DNA from: Pseudomonas oryzihabitans
Lineage (GTDB): Bacteria; Pseudomonadota; Gammaproteobacteria; Pseudomonadales; Pseudomonadaceae
Assembly: GCF_014522265.1 (NCBI RefSeq)
Contig: NZ_CP017024.1
Coordinates: 1 to 64,000 of the forward strand
Reading direction: 5' to 3'
Length of the DNA stretch: 64,000 nucleotides
The position numbers were made by a program, and so were the translations under genes. Shown here piece by piece: positions 22,417 to 30,727 of this stretch. How positions within the stretch are numbered: position 1 is the first letter of the stretch; each line of letters begins with the position of its first letter. Below the pieces are notes generated by a model. The model did no database searches, had not been told where the DNA came from, and saw only the letters and a list, made by a program, of their open reading frames with translations.

Positions 22417-23772
22417 TCAGGGCGCCTTGGATTCAGGCGGGTTCTGCAGGAACTCGATCTCTTCCTGCAGCGGTGCTCCCTCCTCGACAGGCTCTTCCTC
22501 TACGACCGGCTCAGTGTGCATCTGGTCATGCACCACCTGGCTATCGACCCGTGGATCCAGGGCCGCTGCCAGCGGCGAACTGGTCGACCCTTCGGGCATC
22601 TGTACGTGGCTCAGCGGCGCCTCGTCGACCAGGTGCTTGCCCGTGACCGCATCCGGGCGGATACGCCAGATCAGGATGGCACCGCAGAGCACGACAAAGG
22701 CATAGAGCATGTTGGGTCCGACCAGATTCATCAGCGCACCCACCACCAGCGGACCGATACAGGCACCGATGCCAAAGGTCACCAGTAGCATGGCGCTCAG
22801 GGATACCCGCCGCTCCCCTTCGATATGGTCATTGGACAGCGCCACCGCCAGGGGGTAGAGCACGAATTGCAACAGGCTGGCGATGAGGCCGAGCGGCAGC
22901 AGCACCACCGGCGGCACATGGGGCAGCACAGCCAGTGGCAGGGCAGCCAGCGTCAGGGCGATGGCGACCACCCGGATCAGCCAGCTGCGATCATGCCGAT
23001 CCGACAGCCAGCCGATTGGCCACTGGGCGATCAGGCCGGCGAAGATGCAGCAGGCCATGAACAGGCCGATGCGCTCGGTGGGCAGGCCCTGGGCGCTGGC
23101 ATAGAGGGGCGCCAGGCCGTAGAAGGAGCCGATCACCAGTCCGGCGACCAGGGTCGTGGTCAACGACTGCGGAATTCGCTGGATAAAAAACGTGGGTTCC
23201 AGCGGCGCCGGCTTGAGCGGTGCCGGGTGGATCTTGCCGGTGACCGCCACCGGCACCAGGCACAGGGCGTAACAGATGGCGACCAGCATCAGCTTGTCGA
23301 CGCCGAGATCCGGCGAGAGCACCAGCACCACCTGCCCCAGCGCCAGGCCGAGGTAGGAAGCGGTCATGTAGCCGGAAAAGACCTTGCCGCGCTCGCCTGG
23401 GCCGGCCTGCTCGTTGAGCCAGCTCTCCAGCACCATGTACTGGCACATCATGCCCATGCCGATCAGCACCCTGAGTGCCAGCCACATCGGCAGCCAGGGC
23501 AGCAGGCCGATCCCCAGCACCGCTGCGCCGACTACGCCGGCGCAGGTCACATAGGCACGGATATGGCCGACCTTGGCGATCAGTCGATGCCCCAACTTGC
23601 CGCCTATCACCAGGCCCGCGTAATAGGCAGCGGTCAGGGCGCCGACCCAGAGTCCCTGCACCTGATCGGCGGCCAGTCGCAGACCGAGATAGGTACTCAG
23701 CAGACCGGTCCCGATCAACATCAACAGCGTCGCGAAATAGAGCCCGCGAAACGCCGACAGCACACGCACCAT
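22417..23772 (-). CDS. MFS transporter, YcaD-like
   Basis: A 451-residue major facilitator with 12 predicted hydrophobic segments between residues about 8 and 385. It has the family-type loop GGKLGHRLIAKVGHIRAYV between segments 2 and 3 and a second WPIGWLSDRHDRSWLIR between 8 and 9. The last 65 residues are cytoplasmic, strongly acidic and Pro/Glu-rich (EPVVEEEPVEEGAPLQEEIEFLQNPPE), which is unusual for the family. The substrate is unknown. It is convergent with flgZ and lies 44 bases after the glycan operon, in the same direction, so it could be read through from it. Confidence 0.75.
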   Translation of the reverse strand: MVRVLSAFRGLYFATLLMLIGTGLLSTYLGLRLAADQVQGLWVGALTAAYYAGLVIGGKLGHRLIAKVGHIRAYVTCAGVVGAAVLGIGLLPWLPMWLALRVLIGMGMMCQYMVLESWLNEQAGPGERGKVFSGYMTASYLGLALGQVVLVLSPDLGVDKLMLVAICYALCLVPVAVTGKIHPAPLKPAPLEPTFFIQRIPQSLTTTLVAGLVIGSFYGLAPLYASAQGLPTERIGLFMACCIFAGLIAQWPIGWLSDRHDRSWLIRVVAIALTLAALPLAVLPHVPPVVLLPLGLIASLLQFVLYPLAVALSNDHIEGERRVSLSAMLLVTFGIGACIGPLVVGALMNLVGPNMLYAFVVLCGAILIWRIRPDAVTGKHLVDEAPLSHVQMPEGSTSSPLAAALDPRVDSQVVHDQMHTEPVVEEEPVEEGAPLQEEIEFLQNPPESKAP

Positions 23773-23816: not shown

Positions 23817-24665
23817 TCAGCTTCGTCGTTGCGCCGCCAGCTGGGCGTCCTCGCCCAGGCGTGGGTTGTATTGGCCTGCACAGGCCTTCATCAGTACCTG
23901 CAGCACCGACAGATTACCTCTGACGCTGCTGATCTTGGTGGGTACCTCGCCCTTCGGATAGCGCCGCACGGTGGGGAGTTCCACGCAGCGATAGCCCAAT
24001 TTCGGTACCCGATAGGAAAGATAGGCCAGCAACTCGTAGGTGGTGAACTCGTCGCGGAACGGTGCCACGCGCGGATCCAGCAGCATGGCCCGGCTGTAGG
24101 CGCGGAAACCCTGGGTGGTGTCGGTCCAGTGGAAACCCGAGGCCAGGCTCAGCATGGGCGCATGGATGAAGCGAATGGCGAAGTCGCGGGACTTGGGGGT
24201 GTTCTCCGCCACGCCGCCGGCCAGGAAGCGCGAGGCCTGGACGAAGTCGTAGCCCTGCTCGATGGCGTCGATGAAGCGCGGGATGGCGTCCGGATCGTCC
24301 TTGTCATTGCCGTCGATGGTCACGATGCCGGTGTAGCCCTCGTCGAGCACGAAGGCATAGGCGCAGCGCAGCTGGGAGCTGAGCTTGCCTGGTGCGGTCT
24401 TGAGCAGCAGCCCACGCACGCCCAGCTCCTGCAGCCGCTGCGGCTCCAGCGAGCCGTCGGTACTGCCACCGTCGACGATGATGACATCGGCGATGTCGGC
24501 GATCCTGACCGCCGCCATACGCCGCAAAAGGTTGAGAATCCGCTCGCCTTCGTTGATGACCGGGATCACCACGCAATGCGGACGGCTGCGACCGTTCCAG
24601 AAGGTCGTCGAATAGCTGGGCACCTGCCAGAGGGCGCGCTCGGTGGCGGGAATTGCAGTAGTCAT
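23817..24665 (-). CDS. Family 2 glycosyltransferase (dolichyl-phosphate mannosyltransferase type)
   Basis: A 282-residue GT2 with a GT-A fold: CVVIPVINEGERILNLLRRM, the nucleotide segment VIIVDGGSTDGS, and the metal motif TIDGNDKDDPDAIPRF. DTTQGFRAYSRAM near residue 190 is typical of DPM1/ArnC-like enzymes that put a sugar on a polyprenyl phosphate. No C-terminal membrane segments are seen, so it would act peripherally. The ATG at 24665 has GGAGG upstream. Last of seven tightly packed genes. Confidence 0.8.
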   Translation of the reverse strand: MTTAIPATERALWQVPSYSTTFWNGRSRPHCVVIPVINEGERILNLLRRMAAVRIADIADVIIVDGGSTDGSLEPQRLQELGVRGLLLKTAPGKLSSQLRCAYAFVLDEGYTGIVTIDGNDKDDPDAIPRFIDAIEQGYDFVQASRFLAGGVAENTPKSRDFAIRFIHAPMLSLASGFHWTDTTQGFRAYSRAMLLDPRVAPFRDEFTTYELLAYLSYRVPKLGYRCVELPTVRRYPKGEVPTKISSVRGNLSVLQVLMKACAGQYNPRLGEDAQLAAQRRS

Positions 24666-24678
24666 AGGTCCTCCAGGT

Positions 24679-25035
24679 TCAACCGACACGGGCCGTGATG
24701 AGGGCGACGCCGGCGATGATCAGGACGATGCCTGCCGCCGTGGTCCAGGGAAAGGCTTCGCGAAAGATCACCACCGACAACAAGGCGACGCTGGCGATGG
24801 CCCCGGCCGTCAGCACCGGATGCGCCACGTTCAGCGGCAGCTTGGCAAGGGCGGCGGCATACAGCAGAAAGGCCAGGCCATACATGAAGAGCCCCAGCCA
24901 GAATGGCCAGTTGGCCAGCGCAGCCATGGGATCACTCAGACTGGGAAAGCGCCGCGGCGGCAGCATGGCCAGCTTCACCAGCACGCTCGCCGAGGCGTTG
25001 GACGCAATGCCCAGGATCAGGATCAGCCACTTCAT
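24679..25035 (-). CDS. SMR/EamA-like small membrane protein (ArnE-like)
   Basis: A 118-residue protein with four hydrophobic segments (MKWLILILGIASNASASVLVKLAM; FWLGLFMYGLAFLLYAAAL; PVLTAGAIASVALLSVVIF; AAGIVLIIAGVALIT). Length, topology and the KLPLNVAHPVLTAGAIASVAL segment fit the small multidrug resistance/ArnE-ArnF group. By analogy with ArnE/F it could flip a lipid-linked sugar. The start overlaps the stop of the gene before it by 4 bases. Confidence 0.75.
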   Translation of the reverse strand: MKWLILILGIASNASASVLVKLAMLPPRRFPSLSDPMAALANWPFWLGLFMYGLAFLLYAAALAKLPLNVAHPVLTAGAIASVALLSVVIFREAFPWTTAAGIVLIIAGVALITARVG

Positions 25036-25868
25036 GCGGCAGCCTCCGGCAGGTCGCGATAGGCCTTGACCGCGACCTGGACGCCACGCTCCAGCGCGGC
25101 CAGGTTGGAGCCCTGCTTGGCCGGCAGCATCTCGATGCTGACCACCTGCTCCGGCAGCCGCCGGGTCAGGGCGAAGGCGATTCCCTCGTGGTTGGTACCG
25201 CCCTCCCCCAGGGTCACCAGATCCGGTTCGCTGGCATGGACGTGACCGATCAGTTCGGCATGCTCTTCGAGGACGCGGGCGGCATCCTCCTCGTTGATGG
25301 TCAGGGCGCCGGTATCGAGCTGCATGAGGATCGCCGGATGCTCCACGGCCCGTACCACGGCGGCGGTGGAATCGCTGTCGATCATGAAGTTGGCGCCATA
25401 GCGTGGCGGATTGGGCTCCAGGCAGATCTGCACCCGGTGCGCCGCGGCCACATCACCCAGGCGGCGGAAGAAGTCCCGTGCCTGCGCCAGGGCCTGGTCG
25501 TCACTCAGCCCAGAGCGATCGCGATTGCGCGGCGAGCCGAACACCAGGCGCGTCGCGCCCAGCCCCTCGGCGACCCGGCAGACGCCCTCCAGCTGCGCCA
25601 GCAGCGCGCGCTGCACGTCGTCGGCGCCGAAAACGTTGAGACCGGTGGTGCCGAACAGCAACGCCTGCATGCCGGTGATCTCGATGCCGCGGGCCTGCCA
25701 CTGCTGACGCACGACCTGGATTTCCTGGGCGGTGGCCGTCTTGGGATCGGCGAAATACTTGCCGGGGGCGATGTCGATGGCATCCACCCGGTATTGCTGC
25801 AGGATCTCGGCGACCATGGCGTCATCGGTCGGATCCCAGGCGATATTGGAGATGGCGATGCGCATCAC
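25032..25868 (-). CDS. Sugar phosphate isomerase/epimerase-like TIM barrel protein
   Basis: The 278 residues match the xylose isomerase-like AP endonuclease 2 family: MRIAISNIAWDPTDDAMVAEILQQYRVDAIDIAPGKYF, QICLEPNPPRYGANFMID with the metal-binding Glu, LQLDTGALTINEED, and IGHVHASEPDLVTLGEGGTNHEGI with His and Asp metal ligands. Such proteins epimerise or isomerise keto sugars. The exact substrate is unknown. It overlaps both neighbours by 4 bases, so it is coupled within the glycan operon. Confidence 0.75.
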   Translation of the reverse strand: MMRIAISNIAWDPTDDAMVAEILQQYRVDAIDIAPGKYFADPKTATAQEIQVVRQQWQARGIEITGMQALLFGTTGLNVFGADDVQRALLAQLEGVCRVAEGLGATRLVFGSPRNRDRSGLSDDQALAQARDFFRRLGDVAAAHRVQICLEPNPPRYGANFMIDSDSTAAVVRAVEHPAILMQLDTGALTINEEDAARVLEEHAELIGHVHASEPDLVTLGEGGTNHEGIAFALTRRLPEQVVSIEMLPAKQGSNLAALERGVQVAVKAYRDLPEAAA

Positions 25869-26653
25869 TGACCCTCCGCCTTGATGACCGGGGGTTCCGA
25901 CTGGGCATAGGCGCGGACCGCGAGCAGGGTGTCGCGCGCGCTGTACTGGTAGCCGTCACGCCCGCTGAAGACTTCGGCATGCACGCTGCGGAAATCGTAG
26001 CGCGCTGGCGTACCCTCCAGGGTATTGCCGAAGTCGCGTCCGAAACCCTGGCTGGCGATGTCAGCCACGCTGATGGGCTCGGCGGTCAGGTGCACCAGGT
26101 CCAGCCCGGCAGCCTGGGCGGTCTGGATGTCATAGCCGAGATTGACCATCGGATAGAACTGGAAGACGCCGCGACTTTCCACCGCGTGCAGGTTGTTGTC
26201 GTTGAGCAGGTCGTAGATCACGTTCTTGCGCAGCCCGGGCCCGACCAGGCCCGGCAGGCGGACGATCAGGGCGTTGGCGAAATGCTCACGGACGAACTGC
26301 TCCAGTCGATAGCGATTGGCGCCATAGGCGTGCAGTCCCTCTGCGTCCACCGCGGTGGTCTCATCGACGCCAAGCGGCTGCTTGAAGACATCCACGGTGC
26401 TGATCAGCACGAAGGAATCGCACTGGATCCGTGACAGATGACCGATCAGGCCATCGATCTTCTCGCGATCGGCCGCAGGATCGCGATTGGCGATCCACTT
26501 CTGCGCCGGCGCTCCGGCGCAGATGACCTGGCCATAGGGCTGATCGCCGATCTGGTCGATATTGGTGGAGCGAAACAGCGCGCCGAAGGCCTTCTGCTTG
26601 AGCAGCGTCGACCCCACGAAGCCGCTGTACCCTATCAATGCGTCGGTCTTCAT
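25865..26653 (-). CDS. NAD(P)-dependent sugar epimerase/dehydratase-like SDR
   Basis: A 262-residue SDR-like protein with a short Rossmann start MKTDALIGYSGFVGSTLLKQ (GxxGxxG in GYSGFVGS). The active-site-like stretch is FVLISTVDVFKQP, and YGANRYRLE supplies a YxxxR where the usual motif is YxxxK. The Lys-to-Arg difference at the catalytic position makes standard epimerase chemistry doubtful, so it might be a reductase or a binding protein. The start is the ATG at 26653. It lies 5 bases after the large membrane protein. Confidence 0.65.
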   Translation of the reverse strand: MKTDALIGYSGFVGSTLLKQKAFGALFRSTNIDQIGDQPYGQVICAGAPAQKWIANRDPAADREKIDGLIGHLSRIQCDSFVLISTVDVFKQPLGVDETTAVDAEGLHAYGANRYRLEQFVREHFANALIVRLPGLVGPGLRKNVIYDLLNDNNLHAVESRGVFQFYPMVNLGYDIQTAQAAGLDLVHLTAEPISVADIASQGFGRDFGNTLEGTPARYDFRSVHAEVFSGRDGYQYSARDTLLAVRAYAQSEPPVIKAEGQ

Positions 26654-26658
26654 GTAGC

Positions 26659-28290
26659 TCACCCCTTGGTCTTGAATCTCAGGCAATAGTCCGGTTGGCA
26701 CTCCTCGACGGGATAACGCTCGTCCAGGTAGGCCTTAAGTCGTGGAAATTTGTCGTGCATGGAAATGTTGTTCAGCTTGAATGACCAGAAGGTCGTCGAA
26801 TACACCACCGCCGGCGGATCGGCATGTTGCAGATCGCTGAGCAGATCGGCTTCGTAGGGTGGCGTGGCATAGACCGGATAGATGTACTTGGTACAGGCCG
26901 GCAGATCGGTCACGCCGTTGATGACCCCGTTGTTGGCCAGATCGAACACACAGTGAGCGCCGCTTTCCAGCAGGCGCCGCGAGGCCCATTGCACACCGGG
27001 CGTGGCCAAGGCGGCGTCATCCGGCAAGGCGGTCAAAGCCGGCACCCAGGCGAGCCCCTGGGCCCACACCCGCTCGACCGGCGATTTGTAGAGATTGAAG
27101 GCGGCGAGCAGCACCAGCAGCGCCGCCAGGGCCGGTACCAGCAGACGCCGGCTGAAGGCCAGCAGCGCACCCGCCAGCAGCACCGCAAAGAACGGCGAGG
27201 GATTAAGTCCGACCAGCCCCATCAGTACGGCAGCGGCAATGGCCGCGGCCGCCGCGCGCGGATGCGCCGAGATGTCCCAGCCGCCGTTGCGGGCCAGCCG
27301 CTGCCGGCGGGCGGCATAGAGCAGGCTCAGCAGGGGCACCCAGAAGCCCATCTGGATATGCTGGAAGTCCGCGCGATTGACCCCGATCTTGAAGAAGATC
27401 GCGAGCAGCACTGCCAGGGCACCAATCAGCGGCAGATCCTCGCTCCAGCGCCACGGCCAGGGCAGACAGCGGATCAGGGCGAAACCGGCCAGCGCCGTAG
27501 GCACTGCCAGCAGCAGGCTCAGCGCCAGCGGCCGGGCATTCAGGCCATAGCCCCACTGGGACGAGGTTTCCAGAAGGAAGGTCAGGTTCTTGACGTAATC
27601 GGTCAGGGCGAAGAAATCGGTACCAAAGCCAAGCCAGCCAACCGTTGCCACGAAGGTCAGCAGCGACAGGAAATGGCGCCGATGCAGAAGCAGCGTGAGC
27701 AGTACCGCCGAGCCGATGGGCAGCACCCCGGCGATCCCGCGGTCATAGGACCAGAACAGATTGAAGCCGGCGGCCAGGCCGAGCAGCACCTCGCAGACCA
27801 ATCGCCGCGGCGTGGTCTCCACCTTGCGATGCAGACAGAAGAGGAACAGTGACAGCAGCAGGAAGAGATCGCGATAGCCCACCACCTGAGTCGCCACGGC
27901 GCCCATGGCTACCAGCAGGATCAGGCGCGCGCGGCCCTTGGGCACGGGGCACAGCAAAACGGCCGTTCCCCACAGCAATAGGGCCGCGCCGGTGTTGCAC
28001 AGTCCATAGAGGATCTGGGTCACCAGGAAGGTGTGCTGGGCGCCGAACCAGGTCTCCGCCAGCCACACCGGGATGAAATCCAGCCCGCCATGGATGGTGA
28101 AGGCATGAGCGCCCGGCTGACTGTGCAGCAGCGTCGGCAGCGTGGCGAAATATTCCCCCTGGTGGAAGGGGTCGAGGATGACGCCCTTGCCGAACAGAAA
28201 GAAATTGATGATGGAAAAGATCAGAACGCTGATGAAGCCGGCGACGCCAGACACCCCCCTGGGTGTCGCTTCAGTGGAAGGGTTCGGCAT
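26659..28290 (-). CDS. Polytopic membrane protein, possible GT-C glycosyltransferase
   Basis: The 543-residue protein has roughly 11-13 hydrophobic segments from residue about 15 to 410 and a soluble C-terminal part of about 130 residues. Right after the first segment comes ILDPFHQGEYFATLPTLLHS, where acidic residues (Asp, Glu) sit in the predicted first periplasmic loop, as in GT-C enzymes that use polyprenyl-phosphate sugars. The C-terminal region has FWSFKLNNISMHDKFPRLKAYLDERYP and three Cys near DLPACTKYIYPVY. I do not recognise the family with certainty. The start is the ATG at 28290 (GGAG 7 bases upstream), which overlaps the preceding gene by 20 bases. Confidence 0.65.
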   Translation of the reverse strand: MPNPSTEATPRGVSGVAGFISVLIFSIINFFLFGKGVILDPFHQGEYFATLPTLLHSQPGAHAFTIHGGLDFIPVWLAETWFGAQHTFLVTQILYGLCNTGAALLLWGTAVLLCPVPKGRARLILLVAMGAVATQVVGYRDLFLLLSLFLFCLHRKVETTPRRLVCEVLLGLAAGFNLFWSYDRGIAGVLPIGSAVLLTLLLHRRHFLSLLTFVATVGWLGFGTDFFALTDYVKNLTFLLETSSQWGYGLNARPLALSLLLAVPTALAGFALIRCLPWPWRWSEDLPLIGALAVLLAIFFKIGVNRADFQHIQMGFWVPLLSLLYAARRQRLARNGGWDISAHPRAAAAAIAAAVLMGLVGLNPSPFFAVLLAGALLAFSRRLLVPALAALLVLLAAFNLYKSPVERVWAQGLAWVPALTALPDDAALATPGVQWASRRLLESGAHCVFDLANNGVINGVTDLPACTKYIYPVYATPPYEADLLSDLQHADPPAVVYSTTFWSFKLNNISMHDKFPRLKAYLDERYPVEECQPDYCLRFKTKG

Positions 28291-29377
28291 CGAGGCGCTC
28301 CAGGGCATCGAAAATGTTGTCGATCTTGCCACCCAGCATCGAATAGCAGCCGGGCAGCTGGGAATGTTGTTCGAAGAGGATGGGACGGCCGTCGTCGCCT
28401 TCGTTCTTCATCAGGATGGTCTTTACCTCGAACAGCGAATCCCGGTACTCCACCCGTGCCGCAGCCGACATGTAGCGGGCCACGTCGCGCACCATCCAGT
28501 CCGCTCGCGAGGCACGGTCGTAGTCGTCGAGCAGGGCATAGGGATCGGTGCCATTGGCGTCTTCCCAGTTCAGGTGCGGGGTGTAACGCACATGGGACAG
28601 GGTGTGCAGACCGCGCGCCGGGAACGGCATCATGGAAAAGAACGGACCGTCCATGACCGTCACGCCGAGGTCGCGCAGCTCCGGAGGCATCTCCACCAGG
28701 GCCATCTCGGTGATCTCATGGCGTAGCCGGGTGGCCGTGCCGGGGAAATCGCCGCCGTACTGGTTGAGCCCGCTGTAGGTACAGTTGAAGAGGTAGCGGC
28801 AATGCAGCTCCTCCTGTCGTCCGGCTTCATCCACGACCTCGGCACCCAGTCCCCCCGCTTCACCGCGGATCGCCATCACGCGACTCTTGAGGCGCACCTC
28901 GACGCCGACGGCATCGAGCTCGCGACTCACTTCGGCGGCAAGTACGGCGGAGTTGAAGGCATATTCCTCCGTCAGATACACCGCCTCGATCAATCGATCG
29001 TCGAACAATCGACTTAATTCTTCGGATGCCGGCTGCAGGGAAGCCTCGATCCCCTGACAGAAACGTTCGAACTGCTTGGCCGTTACCTTGGAGTTGTTGC
29101 GGGCAATGGCATACAACTTGGTGAAATCCCGCACTACCACATCGGGATAGTCGCGCAAGAAGCGCGGCAAGTTGACCCGGCTGCGAAAGGCCGTGACGAA
29201 ACTGCGCGGATAGTGATAACCGTTATGAACACGTGCCTGATTGTTGTAAGAGGCACGCTTCAACAGCCCGTCTTCCCGCTCGATCAGGGTGACTTTCGCA
29301 AAGCCCCTCACGCGCATGAGATACAGGGCCGTCATGGCCCCGTAAAATCCGCCACCGATGACGATCGCATCTTTCAT
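28271..29377 (-). CDS. FAD-dependent oxidoreductase (DAO-like)
   Basis: A 368-residue flavoprotein with the dinucleotide site MKDAIVIGGGFYGAMTALYL and the second FAD contact TLIEREDGLLKRAS. N-terminal NQARVHNGYHYPRS resembles FAD oxidases of the glycine/D-amino-acid oxidase fold, and GGKIDNIFDALERL forms the C-terminal FAD end. There is no membrane segment. Being inside a glycosyltransferase operon, it may oxidise a sugar or a sugar-linked amino group; that is inference. It lies 5 bases after the first gene. Confidence 0.7.
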   Translation of the reverse strand: MKDAIVIGGGFYGAMTALYLMRVRGFAKVTLIEREDGLLKRASYNNQARVHNGYHYPRSFVTAFRSRVNLPRFLRDYPDVVVRDFTKLYAIARNNSKVTAKQFERFCQGIEASLQPASEELSRLFDDRLIEAVYLTEEYAFNSAVLAAEVSRELDAVGVEVRLKSRVMAIRGEAGGLGAEVVDEAGRQEELHCRYLFNCTYSGLNQYGGDFPGTATRLRHEITEMALVEMPPELRDLGVTVMDGPFFSMMPFPARGLHTLSHVRYTPHLNWEDANGTDPYALLDDYDRASRADWMVRDVARYMSAAARVEYRDSLFEVKTILMKNEGDDGRPILFEQHSQLPGCYSMLGGKIDNIFDALERLDAEPFH

Positions 29378-29382
29378 GATCG

Positions 29383-30405
29383 TCAGGCCATGCCAAATTG
29401 AGTAGCCGGTCCTGCGGCATTACCGCCCTGCACTACTTCGACATTGAGCTTGTCACGGCGCGTCATGACGGCGCTCGTGAACTCCTGGGCGACATGATAG
29501 AGCGGCCCTTCGTTGACTCTGTGGGTCAACTGCAGGACATATTCGCCAAGGACGAGCAGGACCAGCGAAATGAGAAAGAACATGCCGGACTGCTGTAATG
29601 AAATCGTCACCCAACCCGGTGCGACGTCATCCTTGAACAGGCCGATGGCAATGACGTAGATGGAATAGAGCAGATTGGACAGGGCACCCACGATGGACAG
29701 GAAGCTGACCATGCGCATCGGCTTGCGGGTGGAGGACACCAGCAGGCGGGCACCGCGATCAAAGCTGCCGGACAGCCGCTTGGGCTTGCTACTGCGCGGC
29801 GGCATGCTGTATTCGAGATTGGTACGGGAGAAGCCCGCCGTCGCCGGCAGGTGCCTATAGGTCAAGGCCGGCGCGGGATGGCGCAGGATATAATTGATGA
29901 CCTTCTTGCTGAGCATCCGGTACTGGGGCGCATCCTTGGCCAGATCGACCCCGTTGAATTGCCGGTAGAGGCTGTTGAAACCTCTGGAGCAAAGACTGTA
30001 GGACAGGGTCTGGCGAACTTTCTGCTGATTGTTGGCGAACACCACGTCGATGCCGCCGGCCGCCTGTTGCAACATGTCAGGCAAGAAGGCGATGTCATCG
30101 GTTTCCGGATCTATGACGACCGCGAAGTCACCCAGCGCATTTTCCAGACCCACCCAGGCAGCGGTATCGGAATCCACTTCCTTGGTCAGGGCATATACCT
30201 GCAGATTGGGCAGGCCGGTGATACTGGTGAGTTGTTTGAGTCGCGCTACGCTGTCATCAGCGGAGGCGTTATCGACAATGATAAGTTCGTAGTCACTTAC
30301 CAAGGGACCGATAACAGTTGCCGCGCGTTCGAGGACGCTCTGCAACTCGGCAGCCTGATTACGAACGACGAACACGACTGAAAGTAGGACGGGATAAAAG
30401 GCCAT
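29383..30405 (-). CDS. Family 2 glycosyltransferase with C-terminal membrane segments
   Basis: The 340-residue GT2 has SVVFVVRNQAAELQSVLE and ELIIVDNASADDSVARLKQL, then VVIDPETDDIAFLPDML as the metal motif. Two membrane helices follow near residues 240 and 275 (MVSFLSIVGALSNLLYSIYVIAIGLF; MFFLISLVLLVLGEYVLQL). This is the layout of GtrB/ArnC-type transferases that make polyprenyl-phosphate sugars at the inner membrane. The start is the ATG at 30405, with GGAGG 8 bases upstream. First gene of the operon; its promoter must lie in 30406-30650, but I cannot place it. Confidence 0.8.
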   Translation of the reverse strand: MAFYPVLLSVVFVVRNQAAELQSVLERAATVIGPLVSDYELIIVDNASADDSVARLKQLTSITGLPNLQVYALTKEVDSDTAAWVGLENALGDFAVVIDPETDDIAFLPDMLQQAAGGIDVVFANNQQKVRQTLSYSLCSRGFNSLYRQFNGVDLAKDAPQYRMLSKKVINYILRHPAPALTYRHLPATAGFSRTNLEYSMPPRSSKPKRLSGSFDRGARLLVSSTRKPMRMVSFLSIVGALSNLLYSIYVIAIGLFKDDVAPGWVTISLQQSGMFFLISLVLLVLGEYVLQLTHRVNEGPLYHVAQEFTSAVMTRRDKLNVEVVQGGNAAGPATQFGMA

Positions 30406-30650: not shown

Positions 30651-30727
30651 TGGTGTCCCAGAGTGGGGTCGAACCACCAACCTTCCCCTTAGGAGGGGGA
30701 TGCTCTATCCAATTGAGCTACTGGGAC
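30651..30727 (-). tRNA. tRNA-Arg (anticodon CCT)
   Basis: On the minus strand a full cloverleaf is visible. The 7-bp acceptor GTCCCAG pairs with CTGGGAC, the D arm is GCTC/GAGC, the anticodon arm is TCCCC-CTCCTAA-GGGGA with anticodon CCT, and the T arm carries GGTTCGACC. The 3' ACCA is encoded. It decodes AGG. Confidence 0.96.

Follow-up and report, generated by a model that had tools for sequence, protein, structure and literature searches.

The first 64,000 nucleotides of contig NZ_CP017024.1 of Pseudomonas oryzihabitans (assembly GCF_014522265.1; hereafter the window) carry seven closely packed minus-strand genes at 23817..30405, which probably form a gtr-like cassette for glycosylation that includes its own sugar-editing module. 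Two GT2 glycosyltransferase homologues (GT2a and GT2b), a small membrane protein of the SMR family and a polytopic protein with a predicted GT-C fold are combined here with three enzymes: an oxidoreductase dependent on flavin adenine dinucleotide (FAD), a short-chain dehydrogenase/reductase (SDR) and a xylose-isomerase-like TIM barrel. The genes are as follows, from the upstream end.

29383..30405, minus strand: GT2a, a homologue of GtrB/ArnC-like polyprenyl-phosphate glycosyltransferases with two C-terminal membrane helices (PF00535; profile match to GtrB 5eke).
28271..29377, minus strand: FAD-dependent oxidoreductase of the DAO family, a proposed secondary-alcohol (hexose hydroxyl) oxidase (PF01266).
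26659..28290, minus strand: 543-aa polytopic protein with a predicted GT-C fold, a proposed periplasmic glycosyltransferase in a variable slot (structure model).
25865..26653, minus strand: SDR with GxxGxxG and YxxxR, a proposed keto-sugar reductase (weak RmlD match, motifs).
25032..25868, minus strand: xylose-isomerase-like TIM barrel (TIM), a proposed keto-sugar epimerase (PF01261).
24679..25035, minus strand: SMR/ArnE-like small membrane protein, a proposed undecaprenyl-phosphate sugar flippase (EamA PF00892 / SMR PF00893).
23817..24665, minus strand: GT2b, a DPM1-like glycosyltransferase and proposed undecaprenyl phosphate loader (PF00535; match to DPMS 5mlz).

An earlier note, made from the letters of this DNA, had described seven packed minus-strand genes, and the open reading frame check of the window found all of them. 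GT2a is followed after a 5-base gap by the FAD gene, which overlaps the GT-C gene by 20 bases; another 5-base gap precedes the SDR gene (ATG at 26653), which shares 4 bases with the TIM gene, including the GTG start of the latter. The TIM and SMR genes also overlap by 4 bases, and a 13-base gap containing GGAGG separates SMR from GT2b. The 12 other genomes of the genus have these seven genes in this order.

We propose that GT2b would load a hexose, most probably glucose, onto undecaprenyl phosphate. To judge from their families, the FAD enzyme would then turn one ring hydroxyl into a ketone, the TIM barrel would epimerise the carbon next to the ketone, and the SDR would reduce the ketone to give a hexose with altered stereochemistry. 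GT2a, a GtrB relative without the catalytic residues, would anchor or present the lipid-sugar, the SMR protein would flip the product across the membrane, and the GT-C protein would transfer the sugar in the periplasm to an envelope glycan, by analogy an O-antigen-like polysaccharide. We infer both the modified sugar and its acceptor.

The sugar-editing part of this proposal comes from the trio of FAD enzyme, TIM barrel and SDR. The nearest named relatives of the FAD enzyme, L-2-hydroxyglutarate oxidase (3.7e-7) and glycerophosphate oxidase 4x9m (6e-7, over the first 52 columns only), oxidise secondary alcohols. The TIM barrel profile matched ketose 3-epimerases best (5e-13) and also YcjR 6wn6 (2.8e-7), the latter with hhalign at 96.6% over 236 columns, and the metal ligands E/D/H/E were present in 50/50 cassette proteins. 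The SDR matched RmlD below the cut-off only; GxxGxxG (three glycines) and YxxxR, a site pointed out in the earlier note, were conserved in all 48 relatives aligned, and the YxxxK of classical and extended SDRs was not found. Motif counts here and below refer to sequences that scored above 90 bits and covered more than 85% of the model; these thresholds left out split or divergent copies such as the GT2b of locus L045, the GT2a of L069, L070 and L136, and several insert-bearing SDRs. In RefSeq, YcjS is labelled glucoside 3-dehydrogenase, YcjR 3-dehydroguloside 4-epimerase and YcjQ guloside 3-dehydrogenase, and a passage of PMC11543891 describes a glucoside being oxidised at C3, epimerised at C4 and reduced by these three proteins. 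Because the FAD enzyme is related to secondary-alcohol oxidases, the TIM barrel matches YcjR, and YcjS, YcjR and YcjQ work in three such steps, the trio may be read as oxidising, epimerising and reducing. If C3 and C4 of glucose were the sites, gulose- or galactose-type products would be expected.

The two GT2 proteins appear to differ in function. The GT2a profile aligned to GtrB 5eke over nearly its whole length (E=3.5e-45, 299 columns), and yet the active site of GtrB is not intact in it: D94 was found in 34/45 sequences, D96 in 0/45, R122 in 1/45 and D157 in 1/45. An alignment with HMMER agreed, with D96 left out and Q at D157. The D157N mutant of GtrB is inactive, as stated in an excerpt of PMC4728340. 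Since the second aspartate of DxD is gone in 45/45 sequences and the catalytic aspartate in 44/45, GT2a is probably not the loader; its sequence suggests a degenerate enzyme that probably serves as a lipid-sugar platform. GT2b matched DPMS 5mlz (8.9e-13) and has both the first aspartate and an SR[FY] motif in 47/47 sequences, with DGNxKD replacing DxDxQ, so that N and K stand at the D96 and Q98 positions; its sequence makes it the probable undecaprenyl phosphate loader. GT2a was present in 45 of the 48 loci having GT2b, and the other three were two contig ends and one 31-bit match. In L046:10110-12893, GT2b forms an in-frame fusion with a polytopic membrane domain of seven helices. Both GT2s of the earlier note are there, but they are not two equal loaders: GT2a is without the GtrB residues and GT2b looks like the loader.

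The small membrane protein had been called ArnE-like, and hhalign bore this out (94% to ArnE); with GtrA it gave 0.1%, so the protein is not GtrA. In the window it takes the place of the small membrane flippase of gtr systems, and GtrA itself stands in its position in three relatives, L036 (P. bananamidigenes) and L069 and L070 (Roseobacter and Sagittula plasmids). An aldo/keto reductase is found in the place of the SDR in L036 and L054, the same two cassettes in which GT2b is absent and GT2a is accompanied by a further GT2 with an intact DxD. These family swaps at the flippase, SDR and GT2b positions point to the duty of each position, namely to flip, to reduce and to load. Flippase, reductase and GT-C protein are exchangeable between cassettes.

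The 543-aa protein is the variable member. Pfam gave nothing above cut-off for it and NCBIfam nothing at all, and a comparison with PDB sequences, by single sequence or by profile, was likewise empty. The earlier note had suggested a GT-C fold and structure prediction as its check; the model (predicted template modelling score, pTM, 0.81) indeed predicts a GT-C fold, ArnT being the best Foldseek match, and 28 of the 50 Foldseek rows had a probability of >=0.60, every one of these a lipid-linked-sugar transferase. A multi-helix membrane domain, an acidic first periplasmic loop and a soluble C-terminal domain were all seen, and D40 and E46 were invariant in 11 sequences. Among a near group of 34 loci, the GT-C family of the window had 9 homologues with a median identity of 0.355, versus 0.62-0.78 for the six other proteins. 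The position of the gene within the operon differs between cassettes, and membrane proteins in other cassettes fall into other sequence clusters of 8, 5, 5, 4 and 4 members, pairs and singletons, a list which also takes in unrelated neighbours such as a gene of the major facilitator superfamily (MFS). Weak profile links join some clusters (M1-M2 88.7%, M1-M4 87.2%). One genome, G028, has two complete cassettes (L113 and L114) whose membrane proteins come from different clusters. On the strength of the model, the seventh protein is a predicted GT-C protein that fills a variable slot, and periplasmic transfer is its proposed role. One cassette (L027:6327-9517) was also seen to have two adjacent members of the cluster to which the window's GT-C protein belongs.

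The cassette is core in the host genus and scattered elsewhere, other phyla included. The GT-C protein was found in 13/13 genomes of the genus, and 12/12 other genus genomes had the seven genes in identical order, flanked by mgtE/tRNA-Arg on one side and the MFS gene/ycgR on the other. In a family-wide search of 398 genomes with the SDR profile, 29 matched at 30 places, comprising the 13 of the genus and 16 of the 385 others. Six roles recur in these loci, i.e., GT2a, FAD oxidoreductase, SDR, TIM-barrel epimerase, small flippase (SMR or GtrA) and GT2b, and the other five accompanied the SDR at 30/30 family places, two of which had one gene in pieces (FAD in L112, GT2a in L117). Matches in the class sample came from 3 of 369 genomes (the window's own, L131 with the full six roles and L137 with a lone weak SDR), and those in the phylum sample from 7 of 398, including two of the host's own genus. 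The FAD profile, run against 84,980 species, matched at least 38 loci; among the matches listed were Bordetella, Achromobacter, Alcaligenes, Caballeronia, Azoarcus, Rhodanobacter, Phytobacter and Desulfovibrio, as well as an actinobacterium, a Victivallaceae bin and a Levyibacteriota bin. Short or weak matches (L059-L065) were excluded from neighbourhood work on these loci. The earlier note had allowed that the set might be absent as a unit elsewhere; instead, the unit recurs both in the genus and in other genomes. A chance or recombined array was ruled out by the seven genes being kept in order and site across the genus and by their recurrence beyond it. Recent acquisition in this genus was also ruled out by the presence in 13/13 genomes at one site and by a G+C content equal to that of the surroundings, with no step. 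No description of the seven-gene set was found in open-licence PubMed Central (PMC) literature, consistent with the earlier note, which knew of no described pathway with this set; P. oryzihabitans was named in none of the papers listed by an O-antigen search of the same literature.

Over 60 distinct loci, all six roles were found in 36, five in 10, four in 3, three in 5, two in 2 and one in 4, several of the low counts being contig ends, trio-only loci or single-FAD viral loci. This count excludes L057 (broken reading frames), L028-L030 (same genus) and the repeats L077, L108, L116, L118 and L124-L130. Pairwise distances of the core proteins rose together (Spearman 0.73-0.93 over all loci, with GT2a-FAD at 0.93 and SDR-TIM at 0.92 as the top pairs; 0.51-0.77 in the near group), although, given the shared ancestry behind them, these correlations do not count as independent tests.

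Cassettes were also found on mobile elements. On the 10.8-kb Psychrobacter plasmid pA22P4 (L066), the annotated genes are those for replication, mobilisation and this cassette, with no other annotated cargo; its GT2a (L066:5425-6400) is missing from the PLSDB gene table and was found by profile. Viral contig L071 has genes for tape measure, tail and repressor and is presumably P2-like, to judge from gene content; all six roles lie on it as a block between tail and repressor genes. On a Mesorhizobium plasmid (L068:5925-9990), FAD, SDR and TIM genes lie amid insertion-sequence transposases. At L133:5126-13617, SDR, TIM and a weak FAD match are neighbours of a sugar ABC transporter and a TonB-like gene; this may be a catabolic version.

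The FAD-SDR-TIM trio is a separate module. The SDR profile found 44 loci in viral contigs, and 37 of 49 viral loci carried FAD, SDR and TIM; the 49 are what was left after removing 7 repeats of one contig, and near-identical contigs remain among them (e.g., L152/L154/L155, L150/L151 and L163/L164), so that events are fewer than loci. The E.NP..Y motif of TIM was found in only 6 of the 37 viral trios. A search of the phages collection gave one partial 34% record only. Since the trio occurs without lipid machinery, FAD, SDR and TIM need not be bound to lipid carriers. The earlier note had grouped oxidase, SDR and isomerase as a sugar-modifying set, and that they form one module holds; that they are tied to lipid carriers does not necessarily follow. 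In a 385.9-kb viral contig (L073:5123-10761, IMGVR_UViG_3300028591_000070), the genes run in the order thymidylate synthase homologue, kinase homologue, FAD, SDR, TIM and T4 beta-glucosyltransferase homologue, an arrangement of sequences suggesting that this trio may edit glucose on DNA. Phage RB69 DNA can carry a sugar other than glucose, according to an extract of PMC6024577. Two further viral trios stand with a C5 DNA methylase and a UvsX-like gene (L141:953-6866 and L142:3399-10833), the second also with a thymidylate synthase homologue; the 355-358-aa protein preceding their FAD gene had no Pfam match, and the 358-aa copy gave 0.2% against the T4-type transferase. At most of loci L143-L182, in metagenomic viral contigs, the trio lies within glycan-like clusters (GT2, GDP-mannose dehydratase, methyltransferases, fucosyltransferase).

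Several observations weigh against a gtr-like cassette with an editing module. No hhalign signal was obtained between the GT-C protein and ArnT or YfdI, in a comparison that also missed the PMT_2-positive control M10 (1.7%), and other slot proteins are tied to GT-C only by Pfam PMT_2, in L048 (above cut-off) and L071 (below). GT2b is itself unusual, without the canonical second aspartate (N in 47/47) and with K for Q, and the FAD family has no close relative of solved structure. The GT2a-FAD correlation was not the top one in the near group (0.72 versus 0.77 for FAD-TIM). L049 has FAD and SDR with the other roles not within 11.4 kb, the trio of L133 (FAD match weak) is next to a sugar ABC transporter, and 36 of the 37 viral trios are without GT2a, GT2b, SMR and GtrA, which fits editing on a nucleotide sugar as well.

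Editing on the lipid rather than on a nucleotide sugar is favoured only slightly. Editing at the lipid stage explains GT2a, and epimerisation of an undecaprenyl-phosphate sugar before flipping has precedents in ORF13 and DprE1/DprE2, as part of PMC11127046 relates. It is possible, though on balance unlikely, that the trio makes a rare nucleoside diphosphate (NDP)-hexose from UDP-glucose or another NDP-hexose, with loading by GT2b (perhaps GT2a) followed by flipping and GT-C transfer. Rare sugars are most commonly made by editing of nucleotide sugars, which speaks for this scheme. It also accounts for the phage trios that have no lipid machinery, provided that these do not act on glucose already attached. 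These viral trios adjoin other glycosyltransferases: GT2 was matched by 21 and GDP-mannose dehydratase by 6 of 118 flanking proteins scanned, which were our selection out of 181, and the T4 beta-glucosyltransferase homologue of L073 is a further case. However, the glycosyltransferases alone bind nucleotide sugars here, the SDR matched no NDP-sugar enzyme family strongly, and GT2a, which has membrane helices and has lost its active site, would be left without a role despite its presence in 45/48 GT2b loci. A wider and rather doubtful idea is that the trio is a general stereochemical editor of attached glucosyl residues, acting on undecaprenyl phosphate in bacteria, where the dead GtrB-like GT2a presents the substrate, and on glucosylated hydroxymethyl bases in phage DNA, for example in the L073 phage, where a thymidylate synthase homologue and a T4-type glucosyltransferase accompany the trio. 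GT2a would then be a pseudo-glycosyltransferase turned lipid-sugar platform, serving three soluble enzymes, and the same chemistry would, if the link to phages is true, serve DNA hypermodification.

It seems improbable that GT2a is instead active as a second loader, by way of an unusual and perhaps metal-independent site, so that the cassette would yield two lipid-linked sugars or GT2b would extend a lipid-linked disaccharide begun by GT2a. Its nearly full-length alignment to GtrB and the strict retention of DGN.KD in GT2b (47/47), which shows that non-canonical motifs can be strictly kept, are in favour of such a role; yet GT2a has no conserved replacement, its DxD region and D157 position vary, and both cassettes lacking GT2b (L036 and L054) add a GT2 with a canonical DxD. 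An operon for small-molecule or drug transport, in which the other enzymes would make a toxic or antibiotic-like glycoside for export by the SMR protein, is very improbable. Qac/EmrE families are indeed among the matches of the SMR protein, but this candidate was rejected on account of the substitution of GtrA for SMR in three relatives, the predicted GT-C fold and the presence of polyprenyl-phosphate glycosyltransferase families.

With regard to its surroundings, the host genome is a single contig of 5,047,357 bases, and a tRNA-Arg(CCT) lies at 30651-30727, upstream of the cassette. An MFS gene (22417-23772) lies 44 bases downstream, and all 12 other members of the genus have it next to the cassette too; outside the genus, no MFS neighbour was seen beside cassettes with the queries used. 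Beyond it are what we take, from their sequences, to be ycgR and then flagellar genes. A consensus promoter scan gave 1 promoter-like site versus 1.9 expected, and a terminator scan 8 terminator-like sites versus 5.2 expected.

Among known systems, the gtr-like cassette proposed here resembles the three-component gtr operons of O-antigen glucosylation (GtrA/GtrB/GtrC; YfdG/YfdH/YfdI in E. coli K-12) in having a GtrB-family protein, a small flippase and a variable GT-C protein, and one relative (L071) is carried on a temperate-phage contig, as gtr operons are. The predicted fold and the variable slot would correspond to the serotype-specific GT-C transferase that varies between gtr cassettes. 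It differs in having a second GT2 beside a degenerate GtrB-like one, an SMR flippase as a rule, and seven genes with three sugar-modifying enzymes, whereas gtr operons have three genes and transfer unmodified glucose. Because the GtrB-like protein lacks the active-site residues and three enzymes are added, the cassette is not a gtr operon by definition. With the Arn pathway (ArnC, ArnE/F, ArnT) it shares an ArnC-like GT2, an ArnE-like SMR protein and an ArnT-like predicted GT-C fold; the sugar enzymes are different, and a simple Arn operon was ruled out, as Pfam and NCBIfam revealed no homologues of ArnA, ArnB or ArnD among the seven genes. The E. coli ycjQRS pathway for 3-keto-glucosides and gulosides likewise oxidises, epimerises by a xylose-isomerase-like TIM barrel and reduces, but it is catabolic, and neither of its dehydrogenases is related in sequence to the FAD enzyme or the SDR of the cassette (hhalign <=8%).

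The Citrobacter youngae ORF12-15 pentofuranose system and mycobacterial DprE1/DprE2 also alter stereochemistry before flipping, the latter with an SMR flippase and a GT-C protein, whereas both start from phosphoribosyl pyrophosphate and give pentofuranose products, as set out in a section of PMC11127046. Unlike DprE1/DprE2, the cassette has a DAO-type flavin enzyme (PF01266) plus a TIM-barrel epimerase. The flavin domain of DprE1 is of the vanillyl-alcohol-oxidase type, a different flavin family, and no such domain was listed among the Pfam matches of the FAD enzyme, which has PF01266 instead. Changes of surface sugars determine phage sensitivity and antigenicity, and pathways are known for only a handful of lipid-linked side-chain sugars. 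In the part of PMC11127046 that deals with this point, the authors state that they are aware of no other epimerases in O-polysaccharide side-chain systems, to which the cassette would add another kind. A fixed sugar module with a swappable GT-C slot would predict a rare envelope sugar in many Pseudomonas, Bordetella, Achromobacter, Alcaligenes and other genomes. What is already known in this cassette is the gtr logic of loading, flipping and transfer with a GT-C protein that differs between cassettes; what is added is the sugar-editing module.

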